DNA of 64,000 nt from Enterovibrio calviensis DSM 14347. Lineage in GTDB: Bacteria > Pseudomonadota > Gammaproteobacteria > Enterobacterales > Vibrionaceae. The notes below the pieces were generated by a model. The model had not been told where the DNA came from. It was given only the letters and a program-made list of their open reading frames with translations, and ran no database searches. Shown piece after piece: positions 2,372 to 57,331 of the stretch. Position 1 is the first letter of the stretch; every line of letters starts with the position of its first letter. The position numbers and the translations under genes were made by a program. Location of the stretch: assembly GCF_000621165.1 (NCBI RefSeq), contig NZ_KK211217.1, positions 124,001 to 188,000 of the forward strand. The letters run 5' to 3'.

Positions 2372-3412
2372 GTGACCGATCTTCTCAGTCAAGACGAAAT
2401 TGATGCGCTTCTCCATGGTGTGGACGATGTAGAAGATGATGAACCCGATACGGACGGTGGCGATGTCGCTGCCGCCTCCAATTTCGATTTCTCATCACAA
2501 GACCGTATAGTCCGTGGGCGAATGCCCACCCTGGAGCTGATTAACGAGCGTTTCGCACGTCATATGCGGATCAGTTTGTTTAACATGCTGCGCAAAACGG
2601 CTGAAGTGTCGATTAATGGCGTTCAGATGGTGAAATTTGGTGAATACCAAAACACCCTGTTCGTCCCAACCAGTTTGAACATGGTGCGCTTCCGTCCTTT
2701 AAAAGGGACGTCATTGGTGACCATGGAAGCGCGTCTGGTATTTATATTGGTGGAGAACTTCTTCGGTGGCGATGGTCGATTCCATGCGCGTATCGAAGGG
2801 CGCGAGTTTACGCCTACTGAGCGTCGTGTCATTCAAATGCTATTGAAACTGGTCTTTGAAGATTACAAAGATGCTTGGGCGCCGGTCATGAAAGTAGAGT
2901 TTGAGTACCTCGACTCTGAAGTGAACCCTGCGATGGCGAACATCGTGAGCCCAACAGAAGTGATTGTTGTGAGCTCGTTCCACATCGAGTTGGATGGTGG
3001 CGGTGGTGATTTCCACGTGGTCATGCCTTACTCCATGGTGGAGCCTATCCGCGAATTACTTGATGCGGGTATTCAAAGCGACAAGATGGATACCGACCTT
3101 CGTTGGTCAAAAGCGCTACAAGATGAAGTGATGGACGTGGAAGTTGAGTTGACCGCCAAGCTGTTGGAAACACAACTTTCATTGCGTGATTTGATGGAAC
3201 TGGAAGCTGGGGATGTGATTCCAGTGAAAATGCCAGATGCATGCACGATTTACGTTGAAGACTTACCGACGTTCCGTGGGAAAATGGGGCAAGCAAATGA
3301 CAACCTTGCCCTTAAGATCACCGAGAAATTGAAACGCCCTGAAGTGGCGAAAAGCGACATCGTACTGTTGGGTGATGATCTTGACGAATTTGATCGCTCC
3401 GATGATGACTAA
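2372..3412 (+). CDS. fliM: Flagellar motor switch protein FliM
   Basis: FliM forms the C-ring with FliG and FliN and binds phosphorylated CheY to reverse the motor. The 346-residue product starts at GTG 2372 behind AGGTG. The N-terminal CheY-docking segment LLSQDEIDALLHG (residues 4-16) is intact. A central CheC-like domain and a C-terminal SpoA/FliN-like domain (about residues 255-325) follow. The same EIDALL element is known in Shewanella to bind the ATPase FlhG, whose gene is also in this window. Length and domain order are normal. Confidence 0.97.
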   Translation: MTDLLSQDEIDALLHGVDDVEDDEPDTDGGDVAAASNFDFSSQDRIVRGRMPTLELINERFARHMRISLFNMLRKTAEVSINGVQMVKFGEYQNTLFVPTSLNMVRFRPLKGTSLVTMEARLVFILVENFFGGDGRFHARIEGREFTPTERRVIQMLLKLVFEDYKDAWAPVMKVEFEYLDSEVNPAMANIVSPTEVIVVSSFHIELDGGGGDFHVVMPYSMVEPIRELLDAGIQSDKMDTDLRWSKALQDEVMDVEVELTAKLLETQLSLRDLMELEAGDVIPVKMPDACTIYVEDLPTFRGKMGQANDNLALKITEKLKRPEVAKSDIVLLGDDLDEFDRSDDD

Positions 3413-3453
3413 TGCGATGACAAATAATAACAAACACGATGTGGTAGATAATC

Positions 3454-3843
3454 ATGAGTGACGTAGAAGACGATTGGGCTGCAGCACTGGCTGAACAAGC
3501 AGAAGTTGAAGGTGGAGACGACGTTCAAACAGCGCCGCTAGATGAATTGGTTGATGAGGCTCCGCCGATCAACGCCGATGAGGCCCGTAAGCTCGACGCT
3601 ATTCTCGATATTCCGGTGACCATTTCCATGGAAGTGGGTCGTACCAATATTAACATTCGAAACTTACTGCAATTGAACCAAGGTTCGGTGGTTGAGTTGG
3701 ATCGCCTAGCGGGTGAATCGTTGGATGTTTTGGTTAACGGTACCCTTATTGCTCACGGTGAAGTTGTTGTCGTCAATGACAAATTCGGTATTCGATTGAC
3801 GGACGTTATAAGCCAAACAGAGCGTATTAAAAAGCTTCGTTAA
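3454..3843 (+). CDS. fliN: Flagellar motor switch protein FliN
   Basis: FliN is the lower C-ring subunit and also docks the FliH/FliI export ATPase. The 129-residue product has an acidic N-terminal tail (DDWAAALAEQ) and a C-terminal SpoA domain from about residue 50 to the end, including LDIPVTISMEVGRT and GEVVVVNDKFGIRLTD. The gene is followed by two hairpins, the second an apparent intrinsic terminator, so a transcript from fliK may end largely here. Confidence 0.96.
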   Translation: MSDVEDDWAAALAEQAEVEGGDDVQTAPLDELVDEAPPINADEARKLDAILDIPVTISMEVGRTNINIRNLLQLNQGSVVELDRLAGESLDVLVNGTLIAHGEVVVVNDKFGIRLTDVISQTERIKKLR

Positions 3844-3851
3844 ACGGCTAA

Positions 3852-3876
3852 CCCCTTAGATTTTCAAAAAAAGGGG
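3852..3876 (+). other. Small hairpin downstream of fliN
   Basis: CCCCTT and AAGGGG form a 6-bp stem around an AT-rich loop, eight bases after the fliN stop. It has no U-tract of its own and lies 20 bases before the stronger terminator. It may protect the 3' end of the upstream mRNA. Confidence 0.4.
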
Positions 3877-3895
3877 CTCACCAAAATACCTCAAT

Positions 3896-3926
3896 AAAGC
3901 ATGCTCATTTCGGCGTGCTTTTTTTT
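3896..3926 (+). terminator. Intrinsic terminator between fliN and fliO
   Basis: AAAGCATGC pairs with GCGTGCTTT (one G-U wobble) around an 8-base loop and runs into eight T residues. It lies inside what is usually treated as a continuous fliKLMNOPQR-flhB operon and is directly followed by a sigma-54-like element. Confidence 0.75.
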
Positions 3927-3942
3927 CGGCCTGAATTTTGCT
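3927..3942 (+). promoter_or_regulatory. Candidate sigma-54 promoter for fliOPQR-flhB
   Basis: CGGCCTGAATTTTGCT has the invariant GG-N10-GC spacing of a -24/-12 element and a good TTGCT in the -12 half; the -24 half matches TGGCAC less well. It begins at the base after the fliN terminator and lies 45 bases before fliO. RpoN with the regulators FlrA/FlrC drives early and middle flagellar genes in vibrios. The match alone could arise by chance, and the position is what makes it credible. Confidence 0.5.
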
Positions 3943-3986
3943 TAACCCAGTAAATAGCTCAACACTTATCGGGATTAACAGAGAAA

Positions 3987-4376
3987 ATGGCACGCCTGCA
4001 ACTGACGACAATCGGACTCGTGTTTGCGCCTAGCGCATATTCAGCAACGTCTACTGGCGAGAACCTCGCAACGACCTTCGCGGCACTGTTAGCCGTGATC
4101 GGTGTGATCTTTGCGTTGGCGTGGATGTTAAAGCGTATGCAGGTTCCTTCTCTGATGGGCGCGAAAGCAGGGCTCAAAGTCGTTAGCCAGCTCCCACTTG
4201 GGCAAAAAGAGCGAGTGGTGGTACTGGAAGTGAACGGTGAGCAAGTGCTTGTCGGTGTGACATCTCAGCAAATCACGCTACTCAAAACGTTGGATACGCC
4301 GATGGCTGAACCAGAGCAGAGCCCGTCCTTTTCCTCTCAACTTAATAACATTCTGAAGAAAAATGATGCGTCTTAA
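3987..4376 (+). CDS. fliO: Flagellar biosynthesis protein FliO
   Basis: FliO assists assembly of the FliP ring of the flagellar export gate. The 129-residue product has a hydrophobic N-terminus that may act as a signal sequence, a membrane segment at about residues 28-47 followed by the basic stretch LKRM, and a cytoplasmic domain with the family pattern [20 protein letters not shown]. It overlaps fliP by 14 bases, so the two are probably translationally coupled. Confidence 0.92.
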
Positions 4377-5202
4377 ATCTGTCGGCGCCATATTTTTGGC
4401 GCTTTGTTGTTTTCTTGTCACGCCGTTTGCACTGGCGGAAGCAGAGCCTGCACCAGCAGCGGAAACCGTGACCGAGACTTTAATCGATAGCGCTGGCGAA
4501 GCATCAATGATGCAAGCCACGAATGGTGGCGGTGGTATTCCTGCGCTGACCATGACGGTGAACCCTGATGGGGGCGAGGATTACTCAGTAACATTGCAAA
4601 TTCTGGCGCTGATGACGGCACTGGGATTTTTGCCCGCCATTGTGATTCTTATGACGTCGTTCACCCGTATCGTGGTGGTGATGTCGATATTGCGTCAGGC
4701 CATGGGCTTGCAACAAACCCCGTCAAACCAGGTCATCATTGGCATCGCCATGTTCCTCACCTTATTCGTGATGTCACCGGTTATTGACCGAATGAACGTG
4801 TCTGCGGTTCAACCGTATTTGAATGAAGAAATCAGCTCTCGTGAAGCCTTTGACCGTGTGCAGGTGCCTTTGCGTGAATTTATGCTTAAGCAGACCCGCG
4901 TAAAAGACTTAGAAACCTTCGTGAACATGTCAGGTTCAGACGCGACAGAGCCAGAACTGGTGCCAATGACGGTGTTGATCCCAGCGTTCATTACGTCTGA
5001 GCTAAAAACCGCATTCCAAATCGGTTTCATGCTGTTCCTGCCTTTTTTGATTATCGACTTAGTGGTGGCATCGGTATTAATGGCAATGGGTATGATGATG
5101 TTGTCACCCATGATCGTGTCCTTGCCGTTTAAGCTCATGCTATTTGTATTGGTAGACGGGTGGAACCTCATCTTGTCGACTCTCGCTGGCAGTTTTGGGT
5201 AG
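4363..5202 (+). CDS. fliP: Flagellar export gate protein FliP
   Basis: FliP is the main ring subunit of the FliPQR export gate core. The 279-residue product has a cleavable-type signal peptide (about residues 1-25), a variable linker, and the conserved block starting [19 protein letters not shown] with QTPSNQV. A periplasmic loop and two C-terminal hydrophobic segments follow, the last part reading [16 protein letters not shown]. The start overlaps fliO; the alternative Met at codon 2 is equally possible. fliQ begins 9 bases downstream. Confidence 0.97.
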
Positions 5203-5211
5203 GAGTGGGTT

Positions 5212-5481
5212 ATGGGACCTGAAGCGTTCGTTGAACTGTTCCAAGATGCGTTGTACCTCATCCTTGTTATGGTCTGCGCCATTATTATTCCCGGTCTTAT
5301 TGTGGGTTTGATTGTTGCGGTGTTCCAAGCGGCAACCTCTATCAATGAACAAACACTCAGTTTCTTGCCGCGTCTTATCGCCACGCTGGTTGCGTTGATG
5401 TTCTTTGGGCATTCAATGACGAGAATGCTCATGGAGTATTTCATCCGTCTGGTGGAAGAAATTCCAACGCTGCTTTATTGA
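5212..5481 (+). CDS. fliQ: Flagellar export gate protein FliQ
   Basis: FliQ is the small gate subunit that wraps the FliPR core. The 89-residue product has two hydrophobic hairpin segments (about residues 15-40 and 52-72) separated by the conserved QAATSINEQTLSFLPRL. Length and position between fliP and fliR are typical. AGGAGTGGGTT upstream gives a clear ribosome binding site. Confidence 0.96.
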   Translation: MGPEAFVELFQDALYLILVMVCAIIIPGLIVGLIVAVFQAATSINEQTLSFLPRLIATLVALMFFGHSMTRMLMEYFIRLVEEIPTLLY

Positions 5482-5494
5482 CTGAGCAAGACGC

Positions 5495-6292
5495 ATGGAA
5501 TATCCCGCACACATCATTCTCGAGTGGATGGCCCAGTTCTTTTGGCCATTGACGCGCATCTCCGCCATGATGATGACCATGACATTCTTTGGCGCGCGTT
5601 TTGTGCCCGTGCGTGTGCGTTTGTACCTGTCTCTGGCCATCACGTTCGCTGTAATGCCCTCTATCCCCAGCGTGCCAAGCTCGATTGAGTTGGTGTCCTT
5701 TGGTGGTTTTGTGGTGCTCGCTCAGCAACTGTTGATTGGGGTCGCCATGGGGACGATCACCCAGTTTGTCATGCAAACCTTTGTATTGTTAGGTCAAATC
5801 ATTGGTATGCAATCGAGCCTGGGTTTCGCCTCCATGGTTGACCCCGCGAACGGACAGAATACGCCCCTGCTTGGTCAGTTTTATCTGTTTGTCGCGACCA
5901 TGTTGTTCTTGTCGACCGACGGACATTTACAAATGCTGAACCTAGTCGTGCTGAGTTTTAAGAGCTTACCGATTGGTGAAATGCTCCAATCGGCAGACTA
6001 TCGTGCGCTTGCAAATTGGTTTGGCATCATGTTCAGCGTCGCATTGGGCATGGCATTGGCAGGTATTATTGCCTTGCTGACCGTAAACCTCTCGTTTGGT
6101 GTGATGACCCGTGCAGCGCCACAGTTGAACATTTTCTCTTTGGGTTTTTCGTTTGCCTTGCTCGTTGGCTTAATGATTTGTATGTACTTGCTCAATGGGA
6201 TCTTGCCGCATTACTTGAACCACTGGGACACAGGTGTGAATGCCATCTGTGATTTGATTCGCCTCGACTGTAATGTGAGCGGAGGTGCCTAG
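5495..6292 (+). CDS. fliR: Flagellar export gate protein FliR
   Basis: FliR completes the helical FliP5-Q4-R1 export gate in the inner membrane. The 265-residue product is almost entirely hydrophobic, with about six membrane segments and the family patterns PLTRISAMMMTMTFFG near the N-terminus and GMQSSLGFASMVDP centrally. Its TAG stop shares one base with the GTG start of flhB. Confidence 0.95.
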   Translation: MEYPAHIILEWMAQFFWPLTRISAMMMTMTFFGARFVPVRVRLYLSLAITFAVMPSIPSVPSSIELVSFGGFVVLAQQLLIGVAMGTITQFVMQTFVLLGQIIGMQSSLGFASMVDPANGQNTPLLGQFYLFVATMLFLSTDGHLQMLNLVVLSFKSLPIGEMLQSADYRALANWFGIMFSVALGMALAGIIALLTVNLSFGVMTRAAPQLNIFSLGFSFALLVGLMICMYLLNGILPHYLNHWDTGVNAICDLIRLDCNVSGGA

Positions 6293-9672: not shown

Positions 9673-11328
9673 TTGAAAATTAAACGATTTTTTGCCAAAG
9701 ACATGCGAACTGCATTGGCCGAAGTGAAAGAAGCACTCGGCGCCGATGCGGTTATCATGTCCAACAAAAAAGTGACCGGCGGTGTCGAAATCGTGGCGGC
9801 AGTTGATACTGAAACGCCAACCCGTGATGTGCGCAAAGAAGCGGCCAAGACGCAAATGGCGCAAAGCATGGATCGCGCACAGCCACAGCGTCGAATTGCC
9901 GAAGACAAAGTGCACTTGCGTCGCGACATCAATAAAGAAGCGGCAAGAAAACCGCTGGGTGGCGCGCTGGGTAGCAAGTTTTCAAGTTTGCTTGATCGCT
10001 ATCAGTCACAGTTGCCGGATAACGAGCGCGAGGAAGAGCCTGAAGTCGATTCGCTTAGCGCTCTGCTTGCTCGTCAAAATGATGTTCGCCGTCGTGAAAC
10101 TGAAGCGGCATATGGTGGACAGCAGCAATCGCTTCGACCTGCGACAAATGGTCAGCAAAGCACGCATTCAGCTCGCACCGGCGCTAACAATGCCGCGGGT
10201 GGAGTAGCGCAAGGGTATGGATCAGCATCCTCGCGCAGTAGCCAACAAGCGAAAGGTCAGGAACTCGACCGTCTCTACCGTCAAAAACGTGACGAGTTAG
10301 AGCGCCGTGACCCTCGTAGTGCCGCGCGTCAGGAAAATCGTCTTGATGCTACGCGTAAAGAAACACGTAAATCTGCGCCTCGTCAGCCTGATGAAATGGA
10401 AGCGATGCGCAAAGAAATGGCAACGATTCGTAGCCTGCTAGAGCACCAGCTTTCAGGCTTGATGTGGCAAGAAGTGGAGCGTAAAGAACCGCTTCGCGCC
10501 ATGTTGATTAAACGACTAGAAAAAATGGGAATATCTCCCGTGCTAGCAGACCAGTTAGCCGGTTATATTCCAGAAGATACTCCTCCGAACGAAGCCTGGT
10601 CTGAACTGCTAGAACTTGTGGCAGATCAGGTGATTACATCGAGTGAGAATCTGTTAGAAACGGGTGGCGTTATTGCCCTTTTAGGGCCAACAGGCGTAGG
10701 GAAAACCACCACGATCGCGAAACTTGCGGCACGGGCAGCAATGGACTTCGGCCCAGAAGAAATAGCACTGGTGACTACAGATACATTTCGTATCGGTGCG
10801 CATGAGCAATTGGCAACGTACGGCAGAATTTTAGGTTGTCCGGTAAAAGTTGCTAAAGATGCAGACACACTGGCCGATATTCTGTATCAGTTACGTCATC
10901 GTCGATTGATTCTGTTAGATACCGCAGGCATGGGCCAGCGTGATCTTAGGTTATCAGAACAACTTGATACTCTGATCCAAAGCAGTGGTTCACATATCCG
11001 AAGCTTACTTGTTTTACCCGCCACCTCACAGCGTCGCGTGTTACAAGAGACCATTGACCATTTTCGTCGCATTCCCCTGTCAGGGTGTGTGTTAACGAAA
11101 CTGGATGAATCTCTCAGCTTAGGTGAACTACTGAGTGTGACAATTGAAAACGCGCTTCCAGTCACCTATCTCGCTGATGGGCAACGAGTGCCGGAAGACA
11201 TTCGTCATGCCAGCGGAAGATATCTGGTCAACAGAGCGAGTGAACTGATGGATCAAGATTCAGAGCAGCAAAACCATTTCTGGAGTCATGATGTACCAGA
11301 GTCGAATGCGGCGGACTTTTATGATTGA
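9673..11328 (+). CDS. flhF: Polar flagellum placement GTPase FlhF
   Basis: FlhF is an SRP-type GTPase that recruits the first flagellar components to the cell pole. The start is TTG 9673, giving MKIKRFFAKDMRTAL, the family's conserved N-terminus. The 551-residue product has an N-terminal B domain, a long variable Gln/Arg-rich linker (about residues 90-240) and the NG GTPase domain with P-loop GPTGVGKTT at about 338-346. It also has the G2-region TTDTFRIGAHEQL, the G3 motif DTAG and the G4 motif TKLDE. It overlaps flhG by 8 bases. Confidence 0.96.
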   Translation: MKIKRFFAKDMRTALAEVKEALGADAVIMSNKKVTGGVEIVAAVDTETPTRDVRKEAAKTQMAQSMDRAQPQRRIAEDKVHLRRDINKEAARKPLGGALGSKFSSLLDRYQSQLPDNEREEEPEVDSLSALLARQNDVRRRETEAAYGGQQQSLRPATNGQQSTHSARTGANNAAGGVAQGYGSASSRSSQQAKGQELDRLYRQKRDELERRDPRSAARQENRLDATRKETRKSAPRQPDEMEAMRKEMATIRSLLEHQLSGLMWQEVERKEPLRAMLIKRLEKMGISPVLADQLAGYIPEDTPPNEAWSELLELVADQVITSSENLLETGGVIALLGPTGVGKTTTIAKLAARAAMDFGPEEIALVTTDTFRIGAHEQLATYGRILGCPVKVAKDADTLADILYQLRHRRLILLDTAGMGQRDLRLSEQLDTLIQSSGSHIRSLLVLPATSQRRVLQETIDHFRRIPLSGCVLTKLDESLSLGELLSVTIENALPVTYLADGQRVPEDIRHASGRYLVNRASELMDQDSEQQNHFWSHDVPESNAADFYD

Positions 11329-12208
11329 GACAACCATGCATGATCAAGCAAGCGGCCTCCGCCGCCTGACAAACCCGACTCGCACCAAAGTAATCACCGT
11401 AACCGGTGGTAAAGGTGGCGTAGGTAAAACCAACATTACCTTGGGCATGGGCATGTCTATGGCCAAGCAAGGCAAAAAGGTCATGGTGTTGGATGCCGAC
11501 TTAGGTTTGGCGAACATTGATGTGCTGTTGGGATTACGTGTCGGCAAAAACCTAAGTCACGTAATGCAAGGTGTTTGCGACCTTAAAGACATTATTGTCG
11601 AAGGGCCGCATGGCTTAAAGATTATCCCTGCCTCATCAGGCATGCGCGGTATGACTGAATTGTCGACTGCGCAGCACGCCGGTTTGATCAGAGCGTTTGG
11701 CACATTGGACGAAGAAGTGGATGTGTTGCTCGTTGACACCGCTGCGGGTATTTCAGACATGGTGTTAAGCTTTTCTCGTGCAGCACAAGACGTCGTGATT
11801 GTGGTGTGTGATGAGCCGACATCCATCACGGATGCATACGCTTTGATTAAGCTTTTAAGCCGTGAACATGGCGTCACTCGCTTTAAAGTTGTCGCCAATA
11901 TGGTGCGCAGTTATCGCGAAGGTAGAGATTTATTTACAAAATTAACGCGTGTAACAGAAAGATTTTTAAATGCTAATCTAGAATTAGTAGCATGTGTTCC
12001 ATTAGATGAACGTGTGCGTCAGTCTGTTAAAAAGCAAAAAGTGGTTGTTGATGCATTCCCTCAATCACCGGCAGCCTTGGCGTTGAACGCGCTGGCGAAC
12101 AAAGCGTTGACTTGGCCAGTACCTCGTAACCCAGGTGGACATTTAGAGTTTTTTGTAGAGCGGCTGCTCGTTCGAGATGAAGCAGCAGGGGACTATCTCG
12201 GTGAATAG
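11321..12208 (+). CDS. flhG: Flagellar number regulator FlhG (MinD-like ATPase)
   Basis: FlhG limits vibrios to one polar flagellum by antagonising FlhF and the master regulator FlrA. I place the start at ATG 11321 (MIETTMHDQASGL), which overlaps the flhF stop by 8 bases; an in-frame ATG at 11288 would add 11 residues and seems less likely. The P-loop reads GGKGGVGKTN near residues 28-37, and the deviant Walker A lysine is kept. ADLGLANIDVLLG and DTAAGIS are the other nucleotide-site motifs. The product is 295 residues. The N-terminal GLRRL segment resembles the DQAxGLR motif described for FlhG as the FlhF-activating helix. Confidence 0.95.
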   Translation: MIETTMHDQASGLRRLTNPTRTKVITVTGGKGGVGKTNITLGMGMSMAKQGKKVMVLDADLGLANIDVLLGLRVGKNLSHVMQGVCDLKDIIVEGPHGLKIIPASSGMRGMTELSTAQHAGLIRAFGTLDEEVDVLLVDTAAGISDMVLSFSRAAQDVVIVVCDEPTSITDAYALIKLLSREHGVTRFKVVANMVRSYREGRDLFTKLTRVTERFLNANLELVACVPLDERVRQSVKKQKVVVDAFPQSPAALALNALANKALTWPVPRNPGGHLEFFVERLLVRDEAAGDYLGE

Positions 12209-12960: not shown

Positions 12961-13341
12961 TTGAACACAAACATGAAAATCCTCGTTGTTGATGACTTCT
13001 CAACAATGCGACGTATCGTTAAGAACCTCCTTCGTGATCTGGGTTTCAACAACACTGTTGAAGCAGATGACGGCCTAACAGCGCTGCCAATTCTCAAGAA
13101 AGGCGGTATTGATTTCGTCGTTACTGACTGGAACATGCCAGGTATGCAGGGTATTGACCTGTTGAAGAACATTCGCTCTGACGCGGATCTTAAGCATCTT
13201 CCTGTGCTGATGATCACTGCAGAAGCGAAGCGTGAGCAAATCGTTGAAGCAGCTCAAGCTGGTGTGAATGGTTACATTGTTAAACCATTCACTGCGGCAA
13301 CCTTGAAAGAGAAGCTGGACAAGATTTTCGAACGCATGTGA
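12961..13341 (+). CDS. cheY: Chemotaxis response regulator CheY
   Basis: Phosphorylated CheY binds FliM and reverses the flagellar motor. The TTG start at 12961 sits five bases after CCGGAGG, a strong ribosome binding site; the in-frame ATG at 12973 would have no such site. The receiver domain is complete: DDFSTMRR with the acidic pocket, phospho-acceptor Asp in TDWNMPG (residue 56 by TTG numbering), MITAEA and the switch lysine in YIVKPFTA. It lies between fliA and cheZ. Confidence 0.96.
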
Positions 13342-13376: not shown

Positions 13377-14108
13377 ATGATAACACTCGACCAAGCTAAA
13401 GAATTGGTCAGTTTGCTTGAAGAAGGGAATCAGGAAAGCGCGAATGAGTTGCTGGCCAAATTGGCAAGTGACACGCGTAATCCGCTCTTCAATGAGGTTG
13501 GGAAACTGACCCGGCAACTGCACGATTCGCTGTCTAATTTCCGATTGGATCCGCGTGTCAGTGATCTTGCTAATAGCGAGATCCCTGATGCTAAAGACCG
13601 CCTTAACTTTGTTATGGAAAAAACGGAAATTGCTGCAAACCGAACCATGGATGCAGTGGAAGCGACGTTACCTATCGCCGATAACCTACAAGATTGTCTT
13701 GCTCAGGTTAGACCTCAGTGGAACAACCTGATGGGGGGGCGGATTGACATTGCAAGTTTCAAATTGCTTTGTCATCAGCTAGATGGTTTGTTGACGCAAG
13801 TCGAAGGGGATACCACCAAGTTGCACGGTCAGTTGACCGAAATTTTGATGGCTCAAGACTTCCAAGATTTGACGGGTCAGGTCATTAGACGCGTTATTGA
13901 ATTGGTTCAAGAAGTCGAAAGCCAGCTGGTGGAAATCCTAACGGCATTTGGTTTAGATGACGAACCAAAAGACACAGAATTAGAAACAGAACAACAATCT
14001 GGCATCGAGGCTGAAGGGCCTGTCGTGACTGAAGAGCAGCGTCAAGAGAAACAAGTGATGCAAAGCCAGGACGACGTGGACGATTTACTTTCAAGCCTTG
14101 GCTTTTAG
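13377..14108 (+). CDS. cheZ: CheY-phosphate phosphatase CheZ
   Basis: CheZ removes phosphate from CheY to end the signal. The 243-residue, mostly helical product carries the catalytic helix AQDFQDLTGQVIRR, with the Gln of the DxxxQ motif, at about residues 160-173. An acidic flexible linker leads to the CheY-docking tail SQDDVDDLLSSLGF at the C-terminus. cheA follows after 9 bases. Confidence 0.96.
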   Translation: MITLDQAKELVSLLEEGNQESANELLAKLASDTRNPLFNEVGKLTRQLHDSLSNFRLDPRVSDLANSEIPDAKDRLNFVMEKTEIAANRTMDAVEATLPIADNLQDCLAQVRPQWNNLMGGRIDIASFKLLCHQLDGLLTQVEGDTTKLHGQLTEILMAQDFQDLTGQVIRRVIELVQEVESQLVEILTAFGLDDEPKDTELETEQQSGIEAEGPVVTEEQRQEKQVMQSQDDVDDLLSSLGF

Positions 14109-14117
14109 GGGTGCGTT

Positions 14118-16313
14118 ATGAGCTTTGAAATGGATGAAGAAATCCTGCAGGACTTTTTGATCGAAGCAGGGGAAATTCTAGAACTATTGTCAGAACAACT
14201 CGTGGATCTGGAAAAAACTCCAGATGACCGCGATTTGCTGAATGCAATTTTCCGAGGGTTTCACACGGTTAAAGGTGGCGCAGGCTTTTTGTCACTCACA
14301 GAGCTGGTAGATACTTGCCACGGTGCTGAAAACATTTTTGATAACCTCCGCAACGGTGGCCGCCCTCTCAACGCTGAAGTCATGGATATCATTCTTCAGG
14401 CGCTTGATACGGTGAACGAGCAGTTTGCATGCGTGCAACAAAGCGAACCTTCACCCGCGGCAGACCCTGCATTGTTGGAAGCACTGCACAAGTATGCCAA
14501 ACCTGCCTCAGAAGACGAAGCCGAGCCAGAAGCTGTCGCACCTGAGCCAGAACCGGAACCAGAGCCGGAACCGGAACCTGAAGTTGTGGCTGAAGCCCCT
14601 GCTGAGCAAGGCGAGGCCATTGCGGGCGATTCTGTCGACGAAATCACCGACGATGAATTCGACCGTTTGCTTGATCAGCTTCACGGCAAAGGCCAATCAC
14701 CGACTGCGAATGGCTCACAGCCAAGCGAAGCAGCGTCGTCTGCTCCTGCTGCCGACAGCGGTGATATGACGGACGATGAATTTGACCGTTTGCTAGATGA
14801 GCTTCATGGCTCGGGCAAAGGTCCAGCTCTTGATGGCGATGCCGCTCAAGCGACACCACCACCACAGAATTCATCGGTTGAAAGCCCAAGCAGTGATGAA
14901 ATCACTGATGACGAATTTGAAAAGCTGTTAGATGAGCTGCACGGTAAGGGCAAAAGCCCTATCGAAGCAGAGGCGTCGAACAATGCACCAGCTCCAGCTC
15001 CAGCTCCAGCGGCTGCCGCGCCAAAAGCGGAACCAAAGCCTGCTCCGGCGCCAGCACCTGCTCCCAAAGCAGAAGCTCCTGCACCTAAGCCGCCTGCTGC
15101 TGTTGCTAAACCACCTGCAAAAGTGGAAGAAAAGAAAACACCGGTTGCACAACCAGAGCAAACTGTTCGTGTGAACACGTCAACACTCGACACCATCATG
15201 AATATGGTGGGTGAGCTTGTGTTGGTGCGTAACCGTTTGGTGAGCCTAGGTGCTAACAGTGATGACGAGCACATGGCGAAAGCCGTGACCAACCTCGACG
15301 TTGTGACGGCCGATTTGCAAGGCGCTGTTATGCAAACGCGTATGCAGCCGATCAAGAAAGTCTTTGGTCGTTTCCCTCGCGTTGTACGTGACTTAGCACG
15401 AACCCTTAAGAAAGATATCGTTCTGGAAATGCGCGGCGAAGAAACCGACCTCGATAAAAACTTGGTCGAAGCACTTGCAGACCCAATGGTCCACTTGGTG
15501 CGAAACTCCGTTGACCACGGTATCGAGATGCCGGATGTTCGCGAGCAAAACGGTAAACCTCGTGTAGGTACTGTGACGCTGGCTGCATCACAAGAAGGCG
15601 ATCACATCCTGCTAACTATCGAAGATGATGGTGGCGGTATGGACGCGGAAAAACTGCGCGGAATCGCTATCGATCGCGGTGTGTTGGATGCAGATGCAGC
15701 AGCCCGTTTGACGGATACTGAAGCGTTTAACTTGATTTTTGCGCCAGGCTTTTCAACCAAAGTCGAGATCTCAGATATCTCTGGCCGTGGCGTGGGTATG
15801 GACGTAGTGAAAACTGCGATCACCCAGCTAAACGGTACGATTTCTATCGACTCTGTGTTGGGCCGCGGCACCATTATTTCAATCAAAGTGCCGTTGACGT
15901 TAGCAATACTCCCAACGTTGATGGTGGGTATTGGTAATAATCCATTTGCGTTCCCATTGTCGAACGTAAATGAAATCATCAGCTTGGATCTGTCTCGTAC
16001 CAATACCGTTGACGGTCAATTGACCATCATTGTTCGAGACAAGGCCATTCCATTGTTCTATCTCCAAGATTGGCTATGCAAAACGCGTGCGTCAGTCAGA
16101 GATAGCGGTCACGTCGTGATTGTTCAAATGGGGCATCAACCAATCGCCTTTGTGGTCGACTCGTTGATTGGTCAAGAAGAAGTGGTGATTAAGCCGCTGG
16201 ATGAATTGCTGCAAGGTACGCCGGGTATGGCGGGTGCAACGATCACCAGTGATGGCCATATTGCATTGATTTTGGACGTGCCAAATCTGCTTAAGCGTTA
16301 CGCTGGCCGATAA
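14118..16313 (+). CDS. cheA: Chemotaxis histidine kinase CheA
   Basis: CheA autophosphorylates at the receptor array and passes phosphate to CheY and CheB. The 731-residue product has an Hpt domain (His49 in [13 protein letters not shown]) and then a long Pro/Glu/Ala-rich linker. Dimerisation (about 345-400), ATPase ([30 protein letters not shown]) and CheW-like P5 domains follow. I see no canonical P2 domain. In its place the linker carries three copies of a 15-residue motif of the type [14 protein letters not shown] (residues about 176, 217 and 262). This region probably includes the part through which ParP holds CheA at the pole in vibrios. Confidence 0.97.
14643..14957 (+). repeat. Three protein-level repeats in the CheA linker
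   Basis: [34 protein letters not shown] and [17 protein letters not shown] are encoded from 14643, 14766 and 14901, spaced 41 and 45 codons apart by low-complexity Ala/Ser/Pro-rich sequence. The DNA of the copies has drifted at synonymous sites, so selection appears to act on the peptide. The motif resembles the CheY-docking tail of CheZ and the N-terminus of FliM. Confidence 0.85.
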
Positions 16314-17491: not shown

Positions 17492-18271
17492 GTGATAGTC
17501 TGGAGCATTGCAAACCAGAAGGGCGGTGTTGGGAAAACAACCTCAACCATTACTCTTGCTGGGCTTCTCAGTGAAAGAAACAAGCGTGTACTGCTGATCG
17601 ATACCGATCCCCATGCTTCGTTAACCACGTATCTGAATTACGATTCAGAGACGTTGCCACAAACGCTGTTTGATCTTTTTCAACTCCAGACTATAAGCCG
17701 AGATACGGTTAAACCGCTCATTCTCAATACCGAATATAAGAACCTCGATCTACTGCCTTCTCATATGTCGCTAGCGACATTGGACAGAGCGATGGGAAAT
17801 CGAGGGGGCATGGGGCTAATGCTCAAAAAGACATTAGCCTGCCTAGAAGATGAATACGATTATGCGCTCATCGATTGCCCGCCTATTTTGGGGGTCATGA
17901 TGGTGAATGCGTTAGCAGCAAGTAACCGAATTCTCATTCCTGTTCAGACTGAGTTCTTGGCCATGAAAGGCTTGGAACGCATGATCCGCACTTTGCAGAT
18001 CATGCAAAAGTCACGCAGTTCCGCATTTAAAGTCTGTATTGTTCCGACCATGTACGACAAGCGCACTCGCGCGTCGCTAGAAACACTGCAGCAGCTGAAA
18101 GTGCGTTACCCCGATCAGGTTTGGACATCGGCTGTACCTATTGACACGAAATTCCGTGATGCGAGTTTAAAGCATATGCCTCCGTCGTATTACGCGAAGA
18201 ATTGTCGCGGCGTTTTTGCTTATAAAACGCTGCTTTCTTATTTGGAGCGACTGGAACAGGATGAAAGATAG
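17492..18271 (+). CDS. parC: ParA-like polar ATPase ParC of the chemotaxis operon
   Basis: In vibrios ParC is recruited by HubP and brings chemotaxis arrays to the cell pole. The 259-residue product starts at GTG 17492, behind AAGGAG, with the deviant Walker A QKGGVGKTT at residues 9-17. Walker B-type ALIDCPP and PVQTEFLAMKGL follow the Soj/ParA pattern. No ParB gene accompanies it; instead parP follows with an 11-base overlap, which marks it as the chemotaxis-array member and not a chromosome-partition gene. Confidence 0.9.
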   Translation: MIVWSIANQKGGVGKTTSTITLAGLLSERNKRVLLIDTDPHASLTTYLNYDSETLPQTLFDLFQLQTISRDTVKPLILNTEYKNLDLLPSHMSLATLDRAMGNRGGMGLMLKKTLACLEDEYDYALIDCPPILGVMMVNALAASNRILIPVQTEFLAMKGLERMIRTLQIMQKSRSSAFKVCIVPTMYDKRTRASLETLQQLKVRYPDQVWTSAVPIDTKFRDASLKHMPPSYYAKNCRGVFAYKTLLSYLERLEQDER

Positions 18272-19403
18272 CCGTGTGTTATCCAGTGTTCAGGCGCTGG
18301 ACGATTACTTTGATGCGTTGCTGGAAGATGATGACCAGCAGCGTACCCACACGGATGTGAAATCAGACATCGCAGACGTCGCTGAGTTGACATTACAGCC
18401 CGCGAAGGCTGAAGCGATACCGCTATTCTCTGGTGCCACACTCACGAAACAACAGCGCGATTTGTCTTCAGTTGAGAGACTGCTTAGTCAGCTTCAGCTC
18501 GAAGAGGGCTTAGAAGTTGAAGTCGAAGAGGTCGTTGACGTTGACCTTGAAACAGAAGTCGACGCTCTCACAGAGGTTGTTACAGAGGCGGAAGTCGAGA
18601 CCGAGACAGAAACAGAAGCATCTGTTGATGTTGATTTGGATCTCGAAACGCATGTAGATACGGTTTCAGACATCGAAGTACTTGAGCAAACTCAAGTCAC
18701 TGAAGATGTTGTCGTCGACATGCAAACGTACGCTGAAGCCGCTGCGACAGAAGAAGCGATAGCGGAAGTGACTGATGCTGAACCCCAGGTAGATCTTGCC
18801 GTCGATGACTTTGTTATTGAACAGGTAGAAGCCCCAGCGTCAGAAGACTTTTACGTTGAAGACACTGCGTATGTAGAACCAGAGGTCGAGACTGACGTTG
18901 AACCTGAGGTGCAAGCAGACGAAGACATCGCACCGCCATGGCAAAACATTGCGTCAGAATATGCGTTTCAAGTGTTGTTCTTCGAGTCATTTGGTGTGAC
19001 TTATGCAGTGCCACTGGCAGAGCTTGGCGGCATTCATAGACTAGAAGACTGCAATCATTTAATCGGTCGACCAGACTGGTATTTAGGCTTGCAAACCGAG
19101 CGAGATCAACAGCTTGACGTTGTCGATACGGCGAAGTGGGTGATGCCAGAAAAAATAACGGATAACAGCCATCGCGAAGGCTATAGTTATATTGTGCTCT
19201 TGGGTGACAGTAAATGGGGATTGGCATGCAATTCTCTTTTAGGAACAGAGTCCCTCAAGGGAGAGCAAGTGCGATGGCGTGAACAAGCAGGCAAACGGCC
19301 TTGGTTGGCCGGATTAGTAAAAGAAAGAATGTGCGCATTGATTCACGTCAAAGCGCTGATTGCCATGCTAAATCAAGGTATAGATGCCAACGCGTTGGCG
19401 TAA
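18261..19403 (+). CDS. parP: ParP, CheW-domain array-inheritance protein
   Basis: ParP links ParC to CheA and stabilises polar chemotaxis arrays. I place the start at ATG 18261 behind GGAACAGG, inside the end of parC. The 380-residue product has a short N-terminal segment LDDYFDALLED, then a long acidic Glu/Val/Asp/Thr-rich linker (about residues 85-230). A C-terminal CheW-like (AIF) domain from about residue 234 begins FQVLFFESFGVTYAVPL. The linker is unusually repetitive and is probably disordered. Confidence 0.9.
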   Translation: MKDSRVLSSVQALDDYFDALLEDDDQQRTHTDVKSDIADVAELTLQPAKAEAIPLFSGATLTKQQRDLSSVERLLSQLQLEEGLEVEVEEVVDVDLETEVDALTEVVTEAEVETETETEASVDVDLDLETHVDTVSDIEVLEQTQVTEDVVVDMQTYAEAAATEEAIAEVTDAEPQVDLAVDDFVIEQVEAPASEDFYVEDTAYVEPEVETDVEPEVQADEDIAPPWQNIASEYAFQVLFFESFGVTYAVPLAELGGIHRLEDCNHLIGRPDWYLGLQTERDQQLDVVDTAKWVMPEKITDNSHREGYSYIVLLGDSKWGLACNSLLGTESLKGEQVRWREQAGKRPWLAGLVKERMCALIHVKALIAMLNQGIDANALA

Positions 19404-52536: not shown

Positions 52537-52577
52537 CCCTCAAACAATCATGAATTGTTTGGCAGTAAAATGCCGCG

Positions 52578-52615: not shown

Positions 52616-52716
52616 ATCACAAAACACAGTTTTATCTTCTCACACTACAGTTTTCAGCCAGCCTTCCGATATAGTTAGGGAAATGACCATTTAGGCTATT
52701 ATTCTGCCATAGGGGA

Positions 52717-55700
52717 ATGCGGGCAGTGTCTGACGCAGATTTTTATAACACCATGAAGCAAACGCTTTTTTCATCACAAGCAAGCCGTCGATTTGGCAAA
52801 CTACTTGCTGTCTCAACGTTGCTGCTGAGTCTTGCGGCCACGTTTTCTGTGCATTCGGCCATTCGAATTCTTGGTCCTGTCGATGAATCGCCAGCGCCCA
52901 GCACTGTCACGCCTTTATCACAAGCCACACAGACCGCTTCGACCGTTAATCGTCGACAAACTGTTGGGCCAACGCGCGACAATGATACCCTCTGGTCGAT
53001 CGCGACGCGTAATCAACCTAATTCCGCAGTCTCTGTTTATCAAACAGTGGGCGCGATTTTTCGCTTAAATCCCAATGCATTTGAAGACCAAAACATCCAC
53101 GGATTGATCCCCGGTAGTACGTTACTCATGCCAACGCTGACGGAAATTCGCCGCGAAAGTACGGATGACGTCGCACAACGCCTTCAAATTGATCAAAGAC
53201 GTAAAGATGCGCAGCGAGGCATCAATCGTCAGCCATTGAGCCAACAGGTCGCAGCAACCCCAGAGAAGCCCGCTCAACCTGAAATGATGGCGCCTGCCGA
53301 AAAAGCGAAACCTGTTACTGCCCCTGAAAAGATGGCCAAGCCTGACGTGCCTAAAAAGCCAGAAATGGCGGACATGGACGCTTCTTCTCAGTCTGAAATG
53401 GCAATGAAAGATGGCGATAAAATGGGCGCCGACATGACGCCTCCTAAGCCGGACATGGGCTCAGTGCAAGAGCAGATCGATGAATCTGATTTGCAAATGG
53501 GTAAGCTCGTTGAAAGTAACCACATCTTGAAGATTCGTTTAGCAGAAGTGCAGAACGAGTTGTCTGTTTTAAAAGAACAAATGACGGGTGACGAAGCGCT
53601 GACGGAAGAAATTAAATCCTTCCTAGAAGCACAAAAAATGCGTCAGGCTCAGATGGAAATGAAAGAGCCATCTTTCATTGAATCGCTGATGGCGAGCCCA
53701 TTGATGTTAGCCACGGTCGCGATTATTCCCGCGCTATTAGTTATCGGTATTGCCGCGTTTATCATCATGCGTAGACGCAAGAAAGATGATGATATCGAAG
53801 AACCAGAAGGGCTCGACGGTGAAGAGCCAGACCTGCCTGTCATTATGGTGCCTGATGTTGACGATGATGAATTGGTGCTGGAAGACGATGAACTCGAAGT
53901 TACTGACGACACCGATGCGGATGACCTGTTTGGCGATGAAGGTATTTTTGATTCTGAACTCGATGACATTAACTTGTCAGACAGCTTGGAACTATCCGAT
54001 GAGCCGACAGAGTCTGGATTAGACATTGACGGTGATTCTGACTTTAGTACTGATACCGATCTCGACTCAATGTCGGATGATGACTTCAGCGCAAGCACCG
54101 AGCTGAATGTCGAAGCGAGCACCGAAGGCGCTATCGGCTTAGAAGACATGGAGCGCGCATTAGATGAAATGGCGTCTCAACCTGAAGAGTCGGAATTGAG
54201 CCCAGATGAAGCGCTTGCCGCGATGTGGGAGCAATCGCTCAGTGGCGGCGATGACGCGGATGTTGATGACATTGATGCGTTACTGAATGCGACCCAAACC
54301 GCTGACGAAGAACCTGCAGCAGATGAGCCTGCTGGCGATGATCAGTCTGCAGCGGATGCAGCCATCGCAGAGGCAGAAGCCGCATTTGCAGCAGCGGCAG
54401 CTGAAGACGATGATGACATCACCAATGAAGCCCTTTTTGACAAAGTGTTGGATGACGAGCCAGAAGTCGACTTGTCTCAAGACATTAACCTGTCCGACGA
54501 TGATCTTGATGACATTCTGAATGAGGCACAAGCCGAGCAAACACCAAGCGAGATCAGCGAGGACGACCCTTTCGAGGAAGATAACACCGCCATGCTCGAT
54601 GAGTTCTTGGATGATGTTATTAGTATCGACGATGTCGAAGACAGCCTCACCGAGGGTGATAGCGACAACGATGTACAGCTTGATGGCACCGATGCTCTTC
54701 TTGATGAACTTCTTGACGATGAAGCGTTGGATGACGATGGAAATCCAATTGCTCCGCAAGACGTCGATGATACCGATTCGCTATCGATTGCTGCAGAAAG
54801 AGATACCGATGACATTTCAGATACTGATGCGCTGTTAGACGAGTTTGTTGGTGATGACGACGATCTGCTGGATGAAACTGCATTACTTGATGAAGCCATT
54901 GATGACGATGATCTGCTTGCAGAACTTGTAGGTGAACCTAGCGATGACGAAAATGTTGATCTGGGTGATACAGACGCATTGCTGGATGAACTTGTCGGTG
55001 ACGATGATGACCTTGAAGATGAAAGTGCATTACTGGATGAAGTTCCAGAGGATGACTTACTCAACGACGAACTCATCTCGCTGGATGATGACCTAGTTCT
55101 TGATGATGTTGACGTTCAAGCAACAGAACCGTTAGACGCCATTGATGCCGATGACGACCTACTACCAGCTTCAATCGAGGAAGAGCCTCTCGACGCATTA
55201 GCGGAAAGCATGGTTGATGAGGCCATTGATGATGTCACCATCGAAGCTGAACAAGCTGAACAAGCTGAACAAGCTGAACAAGCTGAACAAGCTGAAGAGG
55301 CAGAACTTGACCCTTCAGAGTCAGACATGGATCTGCTTGATAGCTTACTGGATGAAGGTGAACCAACACCTGACACAGAGCCAATGCCTGCGTTCGATGC
55401 ATCACCTGACAGCTTAGAAGCACTTGATGCTGAAAAGAAAGAAACGCCAGAGGCATCACAAGACGACATTGACCTGCTCGATAGCTTATTGGGTCAAGAT
55501 GATGACGCAGCAGCAAGTGCAGATTTGGATGCGGAAGAGTCGACAGAAATGTCTTCATCCGATGAAACCGCGCTGGATCGGGAAGATGATCTTGTCGGTG
55601 ATATCGAAGAGTCAATTGAAGAAGAGCCATTTGTGTCTTCTGCAGACGAGATCGATCTTGACGATGCTTTTGCAGCGATTGATGCCGCATCTGATGATCA

Positions 55701-57291
55701 GGATACCGCTTCGAACCTCGTCGACGTCGATATAGCGTCCGACGCCATTGCCCATGAAGAGTTAGCTGGTGGTGAGACAGACGTTGAAAGCGTTGAACAA
55801 CAAGACTCTGACGCAGAACTAGACGCTGAACAAGAACACGAGGCTGAAACTCAAGAGGTTGAATCACAACCTGTTGAAGAACGAGCAATAGAAGAACAGG
55901 CAATAGAAGAGCTAGTGCAGGACGACGCTCCTGAACAAGCTAATGAAGGTAATGATGCTGAAAAAGATACGACTGAAGACGACGCGCCTTTAGATCTGTC
56001 GTCTCTTCCAGAGTATGACGAAGAAGCCGCGCTTGCGGACAGCGATTTTGAAGAAGTTGAATCAGGCGATCCTGTTGAAGCAGACAAAGACGACTCATCG
56101 TTTGATTTAAACGATCTGCCTGAATACACCGAAGAAGACGCAGCGGTCGATTTTGACACCACCTCTGATTTTGAGCCTGAAGCGAATGAAGTCGCAACAG
56201 CCTCTCTCGCCGACGAGGTTTCTGTCGAAAGTGAGCCTGTTGACTCTGCGAGCGTGACAGAATCACCTGAAACAGAAGAACCTGAGTCACAAGAACCTGA
56301 GTCAGAAGAAACGGCTGAACAGCCAAGCGAGAGCGCAGAATCGACCTTCACAGCAACAGAAAGTAATACGCTAGCATTTCCACCGGTAGACCCTATCAGT
56401 CTTGATGACTTGGGTGAGTTCGATGAGGATGATGCATTAGGTGCAGCGCTTGATGAACAACGAGAGCTGGACGAAGCGGTACCAGAAAGCGAACGTAGCC
56501 AGTTCTCGCAAGCTTCAGCAGCAGCGTCGCAAGCACCGTATCGAGCAACAGAGCTTAATGACATCGCTGAATTGGAAGACGATGCACATCAAGTTGCTGG
56601 CCTCAATATGGAAGCCTTACTTTCTGAGCCTCTTGATGATGATCAAATGGGGTTGGGCGATTTCCAAACCGTAACGTCGGAAACGGCAGAAGCGGATGAA
56701 GCGAAAGACGTCCTGCATTCATTGGAAGACGCGGACTACTCTGAAAGCGGAGACGAAGATGAGTCCTTCCATCTCTCTGAAGGGCTAGAGGAGTCAGACG
56801 ATCTCGATATCCCCGATGACGAGAGTGGTATCTGGCACGCAGAGCAAACTCCAGAGCCTGAGCTTGAAAGTGAAGATTGGTCTCAACAGCCTGAAATCCT
56901 TGGCGATGAAATCAAATCGATGGATTTGGATGCCGATCTTGAAGGGCTACTTGATGAAGCTGAGAGTGAATTGGTCGAGTCCTCATCCAACGGTGATGGC
57001 TTCATCAGCATTGATGAACTGATGAAAGATGACGGCTTGCCACAAGATGACCCTGATTCAGCGACGATGGATCTTGATGTTGGGCTCGATGATTTCCCTG
57101 ACGTACTGAGCGATATTCAACCAGTGGACGTCGACAGTAGCGGTGAAGCCGCAACCAACATGGATTTGGCAAAAGCCTATCTGGAAATGAATGATATTGA
57201 TGGTGCAATTCAATTGCTTGAACAAGTCATGCAAGGCGATGATTCAACGCTAAAAGAAGAAGCCCGCATGATGATTGAAAAGCTGCACTAA
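52717..57291 (+). CDS. hubP: Polar organiser HubP / FimV-family protein
   Basis: HubP is the polar landmark of vibrios; it recruits ParA1 (chromosome origin), ParC (chemotaxis) and FlhG (flagellum). The 1524-residue product has an N-terminal hydrophobic segment (about residues 30-47), a LysM domain (about 87-145) for cell-wall binding, a Met/Lys/Pro-rich linker and a coiled coil (about 250-310). A membrane segment (about 326-350) is followed by a very acidic cytoplasmic part of about 1000 residues, and a C-terminal FimV/TPR domain ends the protein (LAKAYLEMNDIDGAIQLLEQVM). The start is uncertain: ATG 52717 abuts AGGGG, and GTG 52726 has better spacing. Repeated DTDALLDEL-type motifs lie at 54270-55500. 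Confidence 0.92.
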   Translation: MRAVSDADFYNTMKQTLFSSQASRRFGKLLAVSTLLLSLAATFSVHSAIRILGPVDESPAPSTVTPLSQATQTASTVNRRQTVGPTRDNDTLWSIATRNQPNSAVSVYQTVGAIFRLNPNAFEDQNIHGLIPGSTLLMPTLTEIRRESTDDVAQRLQIDQRRKDAQRGINRQPLSQQVAATPEKPAQPEMMAPAEKAKPVTAPEKMAKPDVPKKPEMADMDASSQSEMAMKDGDKMGADMTPPKPDMGSVQEQIDESDLQMGKLVESNHILKIRLAEVQNELSVLKEQMTGDEALTEEIKSFLEAQKMRQAQMEMKEPSFIESLMASPLMLATVAIIPALLVIGIAAFIIMRRRKKDDDIEEPEGLDGEEPDLPVIMVPDVDDDELVLEDDELEVTDDTDADDLFGDEGIFDSELDDINLSDSLELSDEPTESGLDIDGDSDFSTDTDLDSMSDDDFSASTELNVEASTEGAIGLEDMERALDEMASQPEESELSPDEALAAMWEQSLSGGDDADVDDIDALLNATQTADEEPAADEPAGDDQSAADAAIAEAEAAFAAAAAEDDDDITNEALFDKVLDDEPEVDLSQDINLSDDDLDDILNEAQAEQTPSEISEDDPFEEDNTAMLDEFLDDVISIDDVEDSLTEGDSDNDVQLDGTDALLDELLDDEALDDDGNPIAPQDVDDTDSLSIAAERDTDDISDTDALLDEFVGDDDDLLDETALLDEAIDDDDLLAELVGEPSDDENVDLGDTDALLDELVGDDDDLEDESALLDEVPEDDLLNDELISLDDDLVLDDVDVQATEPLDAIDADDDLLPASIEEEPLDALAESMVDEAIDDVTIEAEQAEQAEQAEQAEQAEEAELDPSESDMDLLDSLLDEGEPTPDTEPMPAFDASPDSLEALDAEKKETPEASQDDIDLLDSLLGQDDDAAASADLDAEESTEMSSSDETALDREDDLVGDIEESIEEEPFVSSADEIDLDDAFAAIDAASDDQDTASNLVDVDIASDAIAHEELAGGETDVESVEQQDSDAELDAEQEHEAETQEVESQPVEERAIEEQAIEELVQDDAPEQANEGNDAEKDTTEDDAPLDLSSLPEYDEEAALADSDFEEVESGDPVEADKDDSSFDLNDLPEYTEEDAAVDFDTTSDFEPEANEVATASLADEVSVESEPVDSASVTESPETEEPESQEPESEETAEQPSESAESTFTATESNTLAFPPVDPISLDDLGEFDEDDALGAALDEQRELDEAVPESERSQFSQASAAASQAPYRATELNDIAELEDDAHQVAGLNMEALLSEPLDDDQMGLGDFQTVTSETAEADEAKDVLHSLEDADYSESGDEDESFHLSEGLEESDDLDIPDDESGIWHAEQTPEPELESEDWSQQPEILGDEIKSMDLDADLEGLLDEAESELVESSSNGDGFISIDELMKDDGLPQDDPDSATMDLDVGLDDFPDVLSDIQPVDVDSSGEAATNMDLAKAYLEMNDIDGAIQLLEQVMQGDDSTLKEEARMMIEKLH
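54680..55012 (+). repeat. Degenerate acidic repeats in the HubP cytoplasmic domain
   Basis: GTDALLDELLDDE, DTDALLDEFVGDDDD and DTDALLDELVGDDDD are encoded at about 54680, 54815 and 54964, each followed by a second [ED][TS]ALLDE unit or similar. Related forms (DDIDALLNAT, DMDLLDSLLDE, DDIDLLDSLLGQDDD) lie at 54265, 55325 and 55462. DNA identity is low. Vibrio cholerae HubP has long, nearly identical acidic repeats at the same place. Confidence 0.7.
55244..55296 (+). repeat. Nine-base tandem repeat in hubP
   Basis: GCTGAACAA is repeated five times in perfect tandem, with partial units on both sides, encoding (AEQ)n within the acidic domain. A nine-base unit keeps the frame, so copy-number change would lengthen or shorten the protein by three residues. 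Confidence 0.9.
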
Positions 57292-57331
57292 GCGTGAGAT
57301 TCGAATAAGCGCAGCAAGGCAATCACGACAA

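Follow-up and report, generated by a model that had tools for sequence, protein, structure and literature searches.

Many marine bacteria seem, from the sequences compared here, to possess a CheA that lacks the usual docking domain and carries instead a row of peptides resembling those of FliM and CheZ. In the window (the whole 64,000-nt stretch of DNA that was analyzed; all features given below lie on its forward strand), the CheA protein (14118–16313) has Hpt (P1), P3, ATPase and CheW-like domains without a P2 match, and its P1–P3 linker contains three close variants of [DE]-[IM]-[TS]-[DE]-[DE]-E-F-[DE]-x-L-L-D-x-L-H-G. The preferred reading, to which a probability of about 0.48 (slightly below even odds) is given, is that the linker peptides of the orthologous, F6-type CheAs are a linear-motif substitute for P2 that would dock CheY.

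The three CheA copies, each a 20-residue unit, are located at 14640–14699, 14763–14822 and 14898–14957 (repeat profile E 2.7e-12, 9.1e-12 and 2.8e-12, respectively). The preliminary description had given one peptide occurring three times in CheA; three copies are present, but they are not identical. Among the class loci parsed, copies were found in 61 of 64 F6-type CheAs, the remaining three having cut-off linkers, and among the named loci they were found in 80 of 80 CheA linkers. Elsewhere in the phylum, where 13 of 26 loci were readable, copies were present in 8/8 F6-like CheA linkers and in 0/5 others. Seven CheAs of other types whose linkers could be read, among them this genome's paralogue, had no repeat copies. 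The copy number per F6-type linker ranged from one to several and was usually two or three, and the repeats were the main, and nearly the only, conserved blocks of the P1–P3 linker, the rest of which was unconserved. In total, 411 repeat-like segments were collected from the CheA linkers of up to 155 loci, loci without a readable P1 being skipped; several loci are near-identical, and the repeat and protein counts are therefore not independent. The search pattern imposed [DE][FIVYLM][DENQ]x[LIVM][LIMV]. Within this imposed pattern, F was present in 409 of the 411 segments, and the leucines of L-L in 383 (first) and 407 (second). At the positions left free of selection, 357 segments had T or S as the cap, and 391 had I or M in front of it. 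No solved structure covering the repeat was found. Among the named loci, F6-type CheAs were observed in Vibrio, Photobacterium, Shewanella, Idiomarina and Alteromonas.

The repeats were compared with the FliM N-terminal CheY/FlhG-docking peptide LSQDEIDALLHG (aa 5–16; 2384–2419) and the CheZ C-terminal CheY-docking peptide SQDDVDDLLSSLGF (14064–14105); the positions given earlier for the latter and for FliM SQDEIDALLHG (2387–2419) were exact. The FliM matrix was trained on 20 parsable loci of 30 class loci, which yielded only three distinct 10-mers, and the CheZ set comprised 82 distinct tails, selected by their endings out of 140 CheZ matches, with QD[DE]VDDLLSSLGF nearly invariant. The positions of the CheA repeat correspond to FliM L6, S7, E10, I11, D12, L14 and L15, and the part of PMC3774744 that was available includes L6, I11, D12, L14 and L15 in its CheY–FliM contact table. 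In this contact register, the CheA repeats conform to hydrophobic-[ST]-x-x-E-hydrophobic-[DE]-x-L-L, a pattern that was partly imposed. When 32 picked CheA repeats were aligned with FliM LSQDEIDALL by hhalign, the contact register was correct, with a probability of 55 and P 1.2e-4; the profile match to the CheZ peptide was weaker (P 0.0018). Against FliM and CheZ together, the CheA repeats scored 14.0 bits, a value attained in 0.7% of 300 column permutations and in none of 88 decoy blocks.

The FliM EIDAL peptide and the CheA repeat share an acidic capped helix and, aligned in a single register, [LIM]-[ST]-x-x-E-hydrophobic-[DE]-x-L-L. They differ in that the CheA repeat has F for I, an extra D-x-L-H-G turn and, at the position of the CheY-contacting FliM Q8, D or E in 392/411 copies and Q in 17, and in that FliM has one N-terminal copy whereas CheA usually has two or three in a mid-protein linker. 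The CheZ peptide likewise has an acidic helix in which L-L is followed, three positions later, by another leucine, but it has V at the hydrophobic position, mostly lacks a hydrophobic residue ahead of the cap and is present as a single copy at the extreme C-terminus. Among 135,999 10-mers, CheA copies 1 and 2 ranked 8th and copy 3 ranked 60th with the FliM matrix, and the copies ranked 26th, 28th and 165th with the FliM+CheZ matrix; unrelated proteins scored as high as the CheA copies. The FliM–CheA match covers few residues and might reflect convergence.

Two chance controls were performed. The preliminary description had proposed that FliM, CheZ, CheA, ParP and HubP share [DE]-x-[IVFT]-D-x-L-L; this consensus was recovered at two sites in the CheA linker, two in HubP and one in ParP, but CheA copy 3 has E, and HubP SQDDIDLLDSLL does not fit the spacing. 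Compared with 1000 shuffles, the consensus count gave P 0.000 for CheA, P 0.010 (global) or 0.025 (local) for HubP, and P 0.020 or 0.015 for ParP. In the second control, the best-site mean of each protein set with the FliM-trained matrix was compared with that of column-permuted matrices. The means were 11.98 vs 1.35 permuted (sd 2.08; P 0.002) for 58 CheA linkers, 13.06 vs 8.52 (sd 1.18; P 0.004) for 17 HubPs, with L227, L229, L230 and L234 left out, and 1.43 vs 0.68 (P 0.185) for 116 ParPs. Since 396 background proteins also slightly exceeded the permuted matrices (2.06 vs 1.35, P 0.010), a small part of the signal is attributable to ordinary helix pattern. FliM-likeness is well above chance in CheA and moderately above it in HubP, and ParP is not FliM-like. 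Over the whole genome, the check proposed in the preliminary description, a strict FliM+CheZ profile HMM (E up to 10; 55 candidates scored), returned only CheZ, FliM and six chance matches, with no CheA, HubP or ParP among them. Although the peptides themselves exist, a single motif common to all five proteins was ruled out by the failure of ParP and of the genome profile.

The P2/CheY-binding domain of CheA corresponds to Pfam PF07194 and PF09078. No P2 was detected by Pfam scan in the window CheA or in 60/60 F6-type CheAs, although the scan also misses P2-looking regions in L105, L109 and L110. The CheA paralogue of this genome has a P2-like region in its linker, for which no PDB sequence match was found. 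The repeats occupy the same place between P1 and P3 as P2 and would have the same job, but P2 is a folded domain, and the F6-type linker has no Pfam match to it. As far as the available text of PMC10782961 goes, P2 is missing in over half of the CheAs surveyed, with an unstructured region in its place, P2 of E. coli CheA affects the speed of phosphotransfer and is not essential for the transfer itself, and CheY capture by P2-less CheAs is unexplained beyond the dispensability of P2; its main text never uses the word "motif". A linker motif array would be a concrete answer to how F6-type CheAs capture CheY. No description of the CheA repeats as CheY ligands was found in the literature searched, a search that most subscription papers lay beyond.

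The window CheY (12961–13341) retains most FliM-contact residues. Among 142 CheYs, contacts I95, A99, Y106, V108, K119 and K122 (E. coli numbers) were the same in at least 137, and A90 in 106; the mean top frequency of the contacts was 0.930 vs 0.874 for the whole protein, which is a weak test. The earlier suggestion that CheA holds CheY by a FliM/CheZ-like peptide gains support from the register, the absent P2, the conservation and the persistence of the repeats where a ParC orthologue is absent, binding itself being putative. From the observed match, register, conservation and repetition, the lack of repeats in the other CheA types read and their persistence without a ParC orthologue, we infer CheY binding, a shared face and a release step. 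The folded P2 of F6-type CheAs would have been swapped for a flexible linker with one to several short helical docking peptides, and every copy would bind CheY at its alpha4-beta5-alpha5 face and concentrate it near phospho-P1. CheY-P would then be released to FliM and CheZ, the users of the same CheY face, and the F at the key hydrophobic position (I in FliM, V in CheZ) may set a preference for unphosphorylated CheY. If true, copy number and the choice of F, I or V would be linked to signalling speed.

A different partner, ParP, has to be weighed. The repeats might be the CheA LID, which would dock the CheW-like AIF domain of ParP and tie the arrays to polar ParC (MinD/ParA-like ATPase; 17492–18271), the FliM likeness being convergence on a capped amphipathic helix. 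In the parts of PMC5706961 and PMC7534058 that were available, the AIF domain of ParP is described as binding the CheA LID of Vibrio between P2 and P3, and the LID as being confined to systems with ParC/ParP. The LID lies in the same linker and the same kind of systems as the repeats, and it probably overlaps them because they are nearly the only conserved blocks there; a ParC match was also present near cheA in 130/155 loci. However, a ParC orthologue (threshold ∼42% identity, the analyst's own choice) was absent in 8/12 genomes, which were chosen for cheA loci showing none and were accompanied by one positive control, and the six of these eight with a parsed linker each keep one to four CheA copies. 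The FliM register and the missing P2 are also left unexplained by the LID. The LID account is considered unlikely, if worth serious consideration. Should docking of CheY prove true, the linker may serve both CheY and the ParP polar anchor. Among the loci without a ParC orthologue, the CheA repeats of L101 are degenerate, and the linker of L099 is cut.

The N-terminal peptide of ParP, ALDDYFDALL (18294–18323), forms a separate conserved motif with Y-[LF]-x-x-L-L at its centre, and LDDYFDALLED, noted previously, is present at 18297–18329. It is probably the ParC contact and fits the published ParC-binding region. With a loose ParP pattern ([YF][LFM]xx[LMTI][LMTF]), its hhalign match to the CheA repeat (probability 33, P 4.5e-4) was nearly as good as that of FliM; as an EIDAL-type ligand, its FliM-like site was not beyond chance in the 116 ParPs.

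A wider version of the preferred reading, which is judged improbable, adds to the trade of P2 for a tandem FliM/CheZ-like array two further elements: kinase, phosphatase and motor would all hold CheY by versions of one peptide, with F, V or I at one position telling the users apart, and a FliM mimic of the DDIDALL type in HubP would store FlhG at the pole. HubP (52717–57291; TIGR03505, TIGR03504) is a HubP/FimV-family polar landmark with an acidic cytoplasmic region, and FlhG (11288–12208) is a known partner of the FliM N-terminus according to the available part of PMC12826062. The HubP segments first noted (54265–55503) exist, and ADVDDIDALL (54256–54285), located after the MERALDE block, could tentatively be regarded as a possible hold for FlhG. 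FliM-like segments exceeded composition in 17/35 HubPs (P<0.05; L229 and L278 left out), in varying places, and the window HubP itself gave P 0.062 with the FliM matrix. MSADDIEALL-type blocks of HubP reached hhalign probabilities of 92 with FliM and 93 with the CheA repeats, scores that are biased upward by the choice of blocks by pattern.

The CheA repeats might also be generic SHOCT-like capped helices that space CheA or let it self-associate weakly, with no specific partner. SHOCT has an I-T-x-E-E-F helix start, and its match in the window CheA falls on a repeat. With Pfam SHOCT (PF09851), 47/60 F6-type CheAs gave a match of E 0.01 or better, the strongest of which (E 2.3e-10) may pass the curated cut-off of 27 bits, but the window CheA (23.9 and 26.2 bits) and L077 (26 bits) are below it. 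Moreover, F, L-L and L-H-G are strict across the 411 copies while the rest of the linker is not conserved, which suggests a specific partner, and the seven CheAs of other types have no repeats; the SHOCT account is considered quite improbable. The GemA and Trypan_PARP matches in Pfam were rejected as real domains.

The competition network first proposed, in which motor, kinase, phosphatase, ParP and landmark would compete by one peptide code for CheY, FlhG and ParC, is very unlikely and is unsupported beyond CheA: the HubP excess over composition and over column permutation, the hhalign matches of the pattern-chosen HubP blocks and the ParP match to the CheA repeat favour it, but ParP is not FliM-like, the window HubP does not go beyond P 0.062, the HubP sites shift in position and are frequently without the S/T cap, neither HubP nor ParP is picked up by the genome-wide profile, and the recruitment of ParC by HubP, on which sources differ, is denied as a direct interaction in the available part of PMC7534058.

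As for the HubP segments themselves, DTDALLDE was rejected as a conserved element, being lineage-specific (8/21 Vibrionaceae HubPs), and so was an origin of the HubP repeats by tandem duplication of DNA, of which only four short arrays were found. LSDDDLDDIL (54490–54519), the top-scoring FliM+CheZ-like 10-mer in the window HubP, and ASQDDIDLLDSLLG (55453–55494), which is CheZ-like with altered spacing, are both restricted to near relatives. Elements resembling ADVDDIDALL, such as MSADDIEALL and LSQDDFDSLL, lie at comparable positions in some other HubPs of Vibrionaceae; of the 15 HubPs with a MERALDE block, 9 carry an element of this type behind it.

The CheA of the window (14118-16313, forward strand) was 96% identical to the CheA of Enterovibrio sp. 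ZSDZ42. P1, P3, ATPase and CheW domains were assigned to it by Pfam, and no Pfam match was obtained for P2, the folded CheY-docking domain of CheA. The cheA sample consisted of 75 loci taken class-wide and 80 loci from named genomes. The F6 label used for this chemotaxis class was borrowed from PMC7534058 and rests on gene order as well, not on a classifier. Most of the P1-P3 linker was of low complexity; the exceptions were copies of [DE]-[IM]-[TS]-[DE]-[DE]-E-F-[DE]-x-L-L-D-x-L-H-G. As shown by the pattern count, one to six of these repeats were present per linker in 61 of the 64 parsed class loci, and the three loci without copies (L082, L085 and L099) all had linkers that were cut off. Two to four repeats per CheA were found in all 80 named loci, Shewanella among them. 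In an alignment of 60 sequences, near-invariance deep in the linker was confined to the repeat columns and one proline. The CheA of locus L078 (genome G033) was an open frame of 1073 aa in which the motif occurs about seven times, along with a long tract of proline and alanine.

Repeats were absent from all seven CheAs of other types whose linker could be read (L104, L105 and L107-L111). One of these, the second CheA of the same genome (L111:6830-8965, contig C6), has a P2-like stretch and no repeats, and it is a built-in control inside the same cell. P2-like stretches in L105, L109 and L110 were also overlooked by the Pfam P2 models, so the Pfam negative is weak on its own. A stronger point is that, in F6-type CheAs, the linker holds no conserved block besides the repeats. 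Independently, P2 is reported to be absent from over half of CheAs, with an unstructured region in its place (PMC10782961); the main text of that paper nowhere uses the word "motif".

The FliM, CheZ, CheA, ParP and HubP of the window were translated for a check of the preliminary description, in which one peptide motif had been proposed for all five. The FliM and CheZ segments were as described. Three motif copies were indeed present in CheA, but they were similar and not identical, and the proposed consensus fitted two of them and not the third. In the alignment, I-T-D-D-E-F-E-A-L-L of CheA corresponds to L-S-Q-D-E-I-D-A-L-L of FliM, whose CheY contacts include L6, Q8, I11, D12, L14 and L15 (PMC3774744). 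Of these contacts, Q8 is not retained in the CheA repeat: among 411 copies, 392 have D or E there and 17 have Q. The repeats nearest to FliM were the first copies (E-I-S-Q-D-E-F or E-I-T-Q-D-E-F) in two Vibrionaceae genomes (L290 and L291). With hhalign, the CheA repeat matched the FliM profile (probability 55, P 1.2e-4) and the CheZ profile (P 0.0018). Its score against FliM and CheZ together was 14.0; 0.7% of 300 column permutations reached this value, and none of 88 decoy blocks did. The best FliM-matrix site per linker averaged 11.98 bits over 58 linkers, versus 1.35 (sd 2.08) for permuted matrices. For the best site of the window linker, the FliM matrix gave P 0.002 under global and P 0.0055 under local shuffling, and the FliM+CheZ matrix gave P 0.0175 and P 0.031, respectively.

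Genome-wide, a strict FliM+CheZ HMM recovered FliM and CheZ alone above chance and not CheA, which speaks against the resemblance; the CheA-repeat HMM returned, besides its three copies in CheA, a single chance match. The likeness is therefore that of a short helical motif, and it is possibly convergent. The Pfam domain SHOCT likewise matched 47 of 60 F6-type CheAs and GemA 17 of 60 (E up to 0.01); in the window CheA both matches sit on the repeats, and they are an annotation trap. SDQDEVDDVI, in a 499-aa frame of the same genome (L258:18502), ranked second of 399 frames by its FliM+CheZ-like score.

CheY is a docking partner of the CheZ tail. It is also bound by the N-terminal motif of FliM (PMC6946799), and the FliM N-terminus is a ligand of FlhG (PMC12826062). 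The CheA repeats may be a P2 substitute built of putative docking peptides, a reading to which we give slightly less than an even chance (about 0.48). Most FliM-contact residues of CheY were highly conserved, but so was CheY as a whole. The next reading is that the repeats are the LID, the CheA linker region bound by the AIF domain of ParP, whose N-terminus binds ParC (PMC5706961). The LID is reported solely alongside ParC/ParP, while the repeats persist in genomes without a ParC orthologue. ParC was searched for in 12 genomes with none at the cheA locus and in a positive control (G162), which gave a match at 50% identity. Four of the 12 had a ParC match of 42-52% away from the cheA locus; the other eight had distant ParA relatives only (best match 30-35% identity). 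Six of these eight, those with a parsed linker, retain one to four repeat copies; L101 has two degenerate copies, and the linker of L099 is cut. The repeats therefore outlive ParC, the protein for which these genomes were searched, as expected if their role were CheY docking. A double role, with both CheY and ParP as partners, is quite possible.

Near the N-terminus of 109 of 116 ParPs, a [YF][LFM]xx[LMTI][LMTF] peptide was found with a loose pattern; in the window it lies around Y-[LF]-x-x-L-L at 18294-18323. Of the 103 distinct peptides, 97 have Y, 102 have L or F at the following position, and the two leucines of L-L occur in 99 and 97; A is used in 70, and L, M or V precedes the variable pair in 98. 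This peptide, a conserved element of ParP's own, probably corresponds to the region known from published work to contact ParC. By hhalign it gave P 0.022 against FliM, P 0.002 against CheZ, and probability 33 (P 4.5e-4) against the CheA repeat, so too sharp a separation of ParP from the CheA repeat is unwarranted. With the FliM matrix, the best site of the 116 ParPs was within chance (P 0.185), and the claim that ParP is FliM-like was not borne out. L187, on a contig titled Endozoicomonas sp. G2_1, has the same linker in CheA, the same tail of CheZ and the same start of ParP as L036, whose genome belongs to the window's own order; the Endozoicomonas title may be wrong.

Copies of the DTDALLDE type were present in 8 of 21 HubPs. 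FliM-like segments exceeded shuffled composition in 17 of 35 HubPs, but not clearly in the window HubP (P 0.062); the HubP set also scored above the column permutation and reversal controls. The likeness is weakened by an acidic composition of about 30% and by general helical character. The elements vary in place, being of the DVDDIDALL type in Enterovibrio relatives and MSADDIEALL or LSQDDFDSLL in others, and of the 15 HubPs with a MERALDE block, nine have a FliM-like element at a similar distance after it and six lack it. A role of this element in FlhG recruitment is a lead, not a finding. The wider competition network proposed among these proteins found no support. At 55244-55296, within HubP, a 9-base unit (AAGCTGAAC) is repeated 5.9 times; the encoded run is of the EQA type, and the tract may vary in length.
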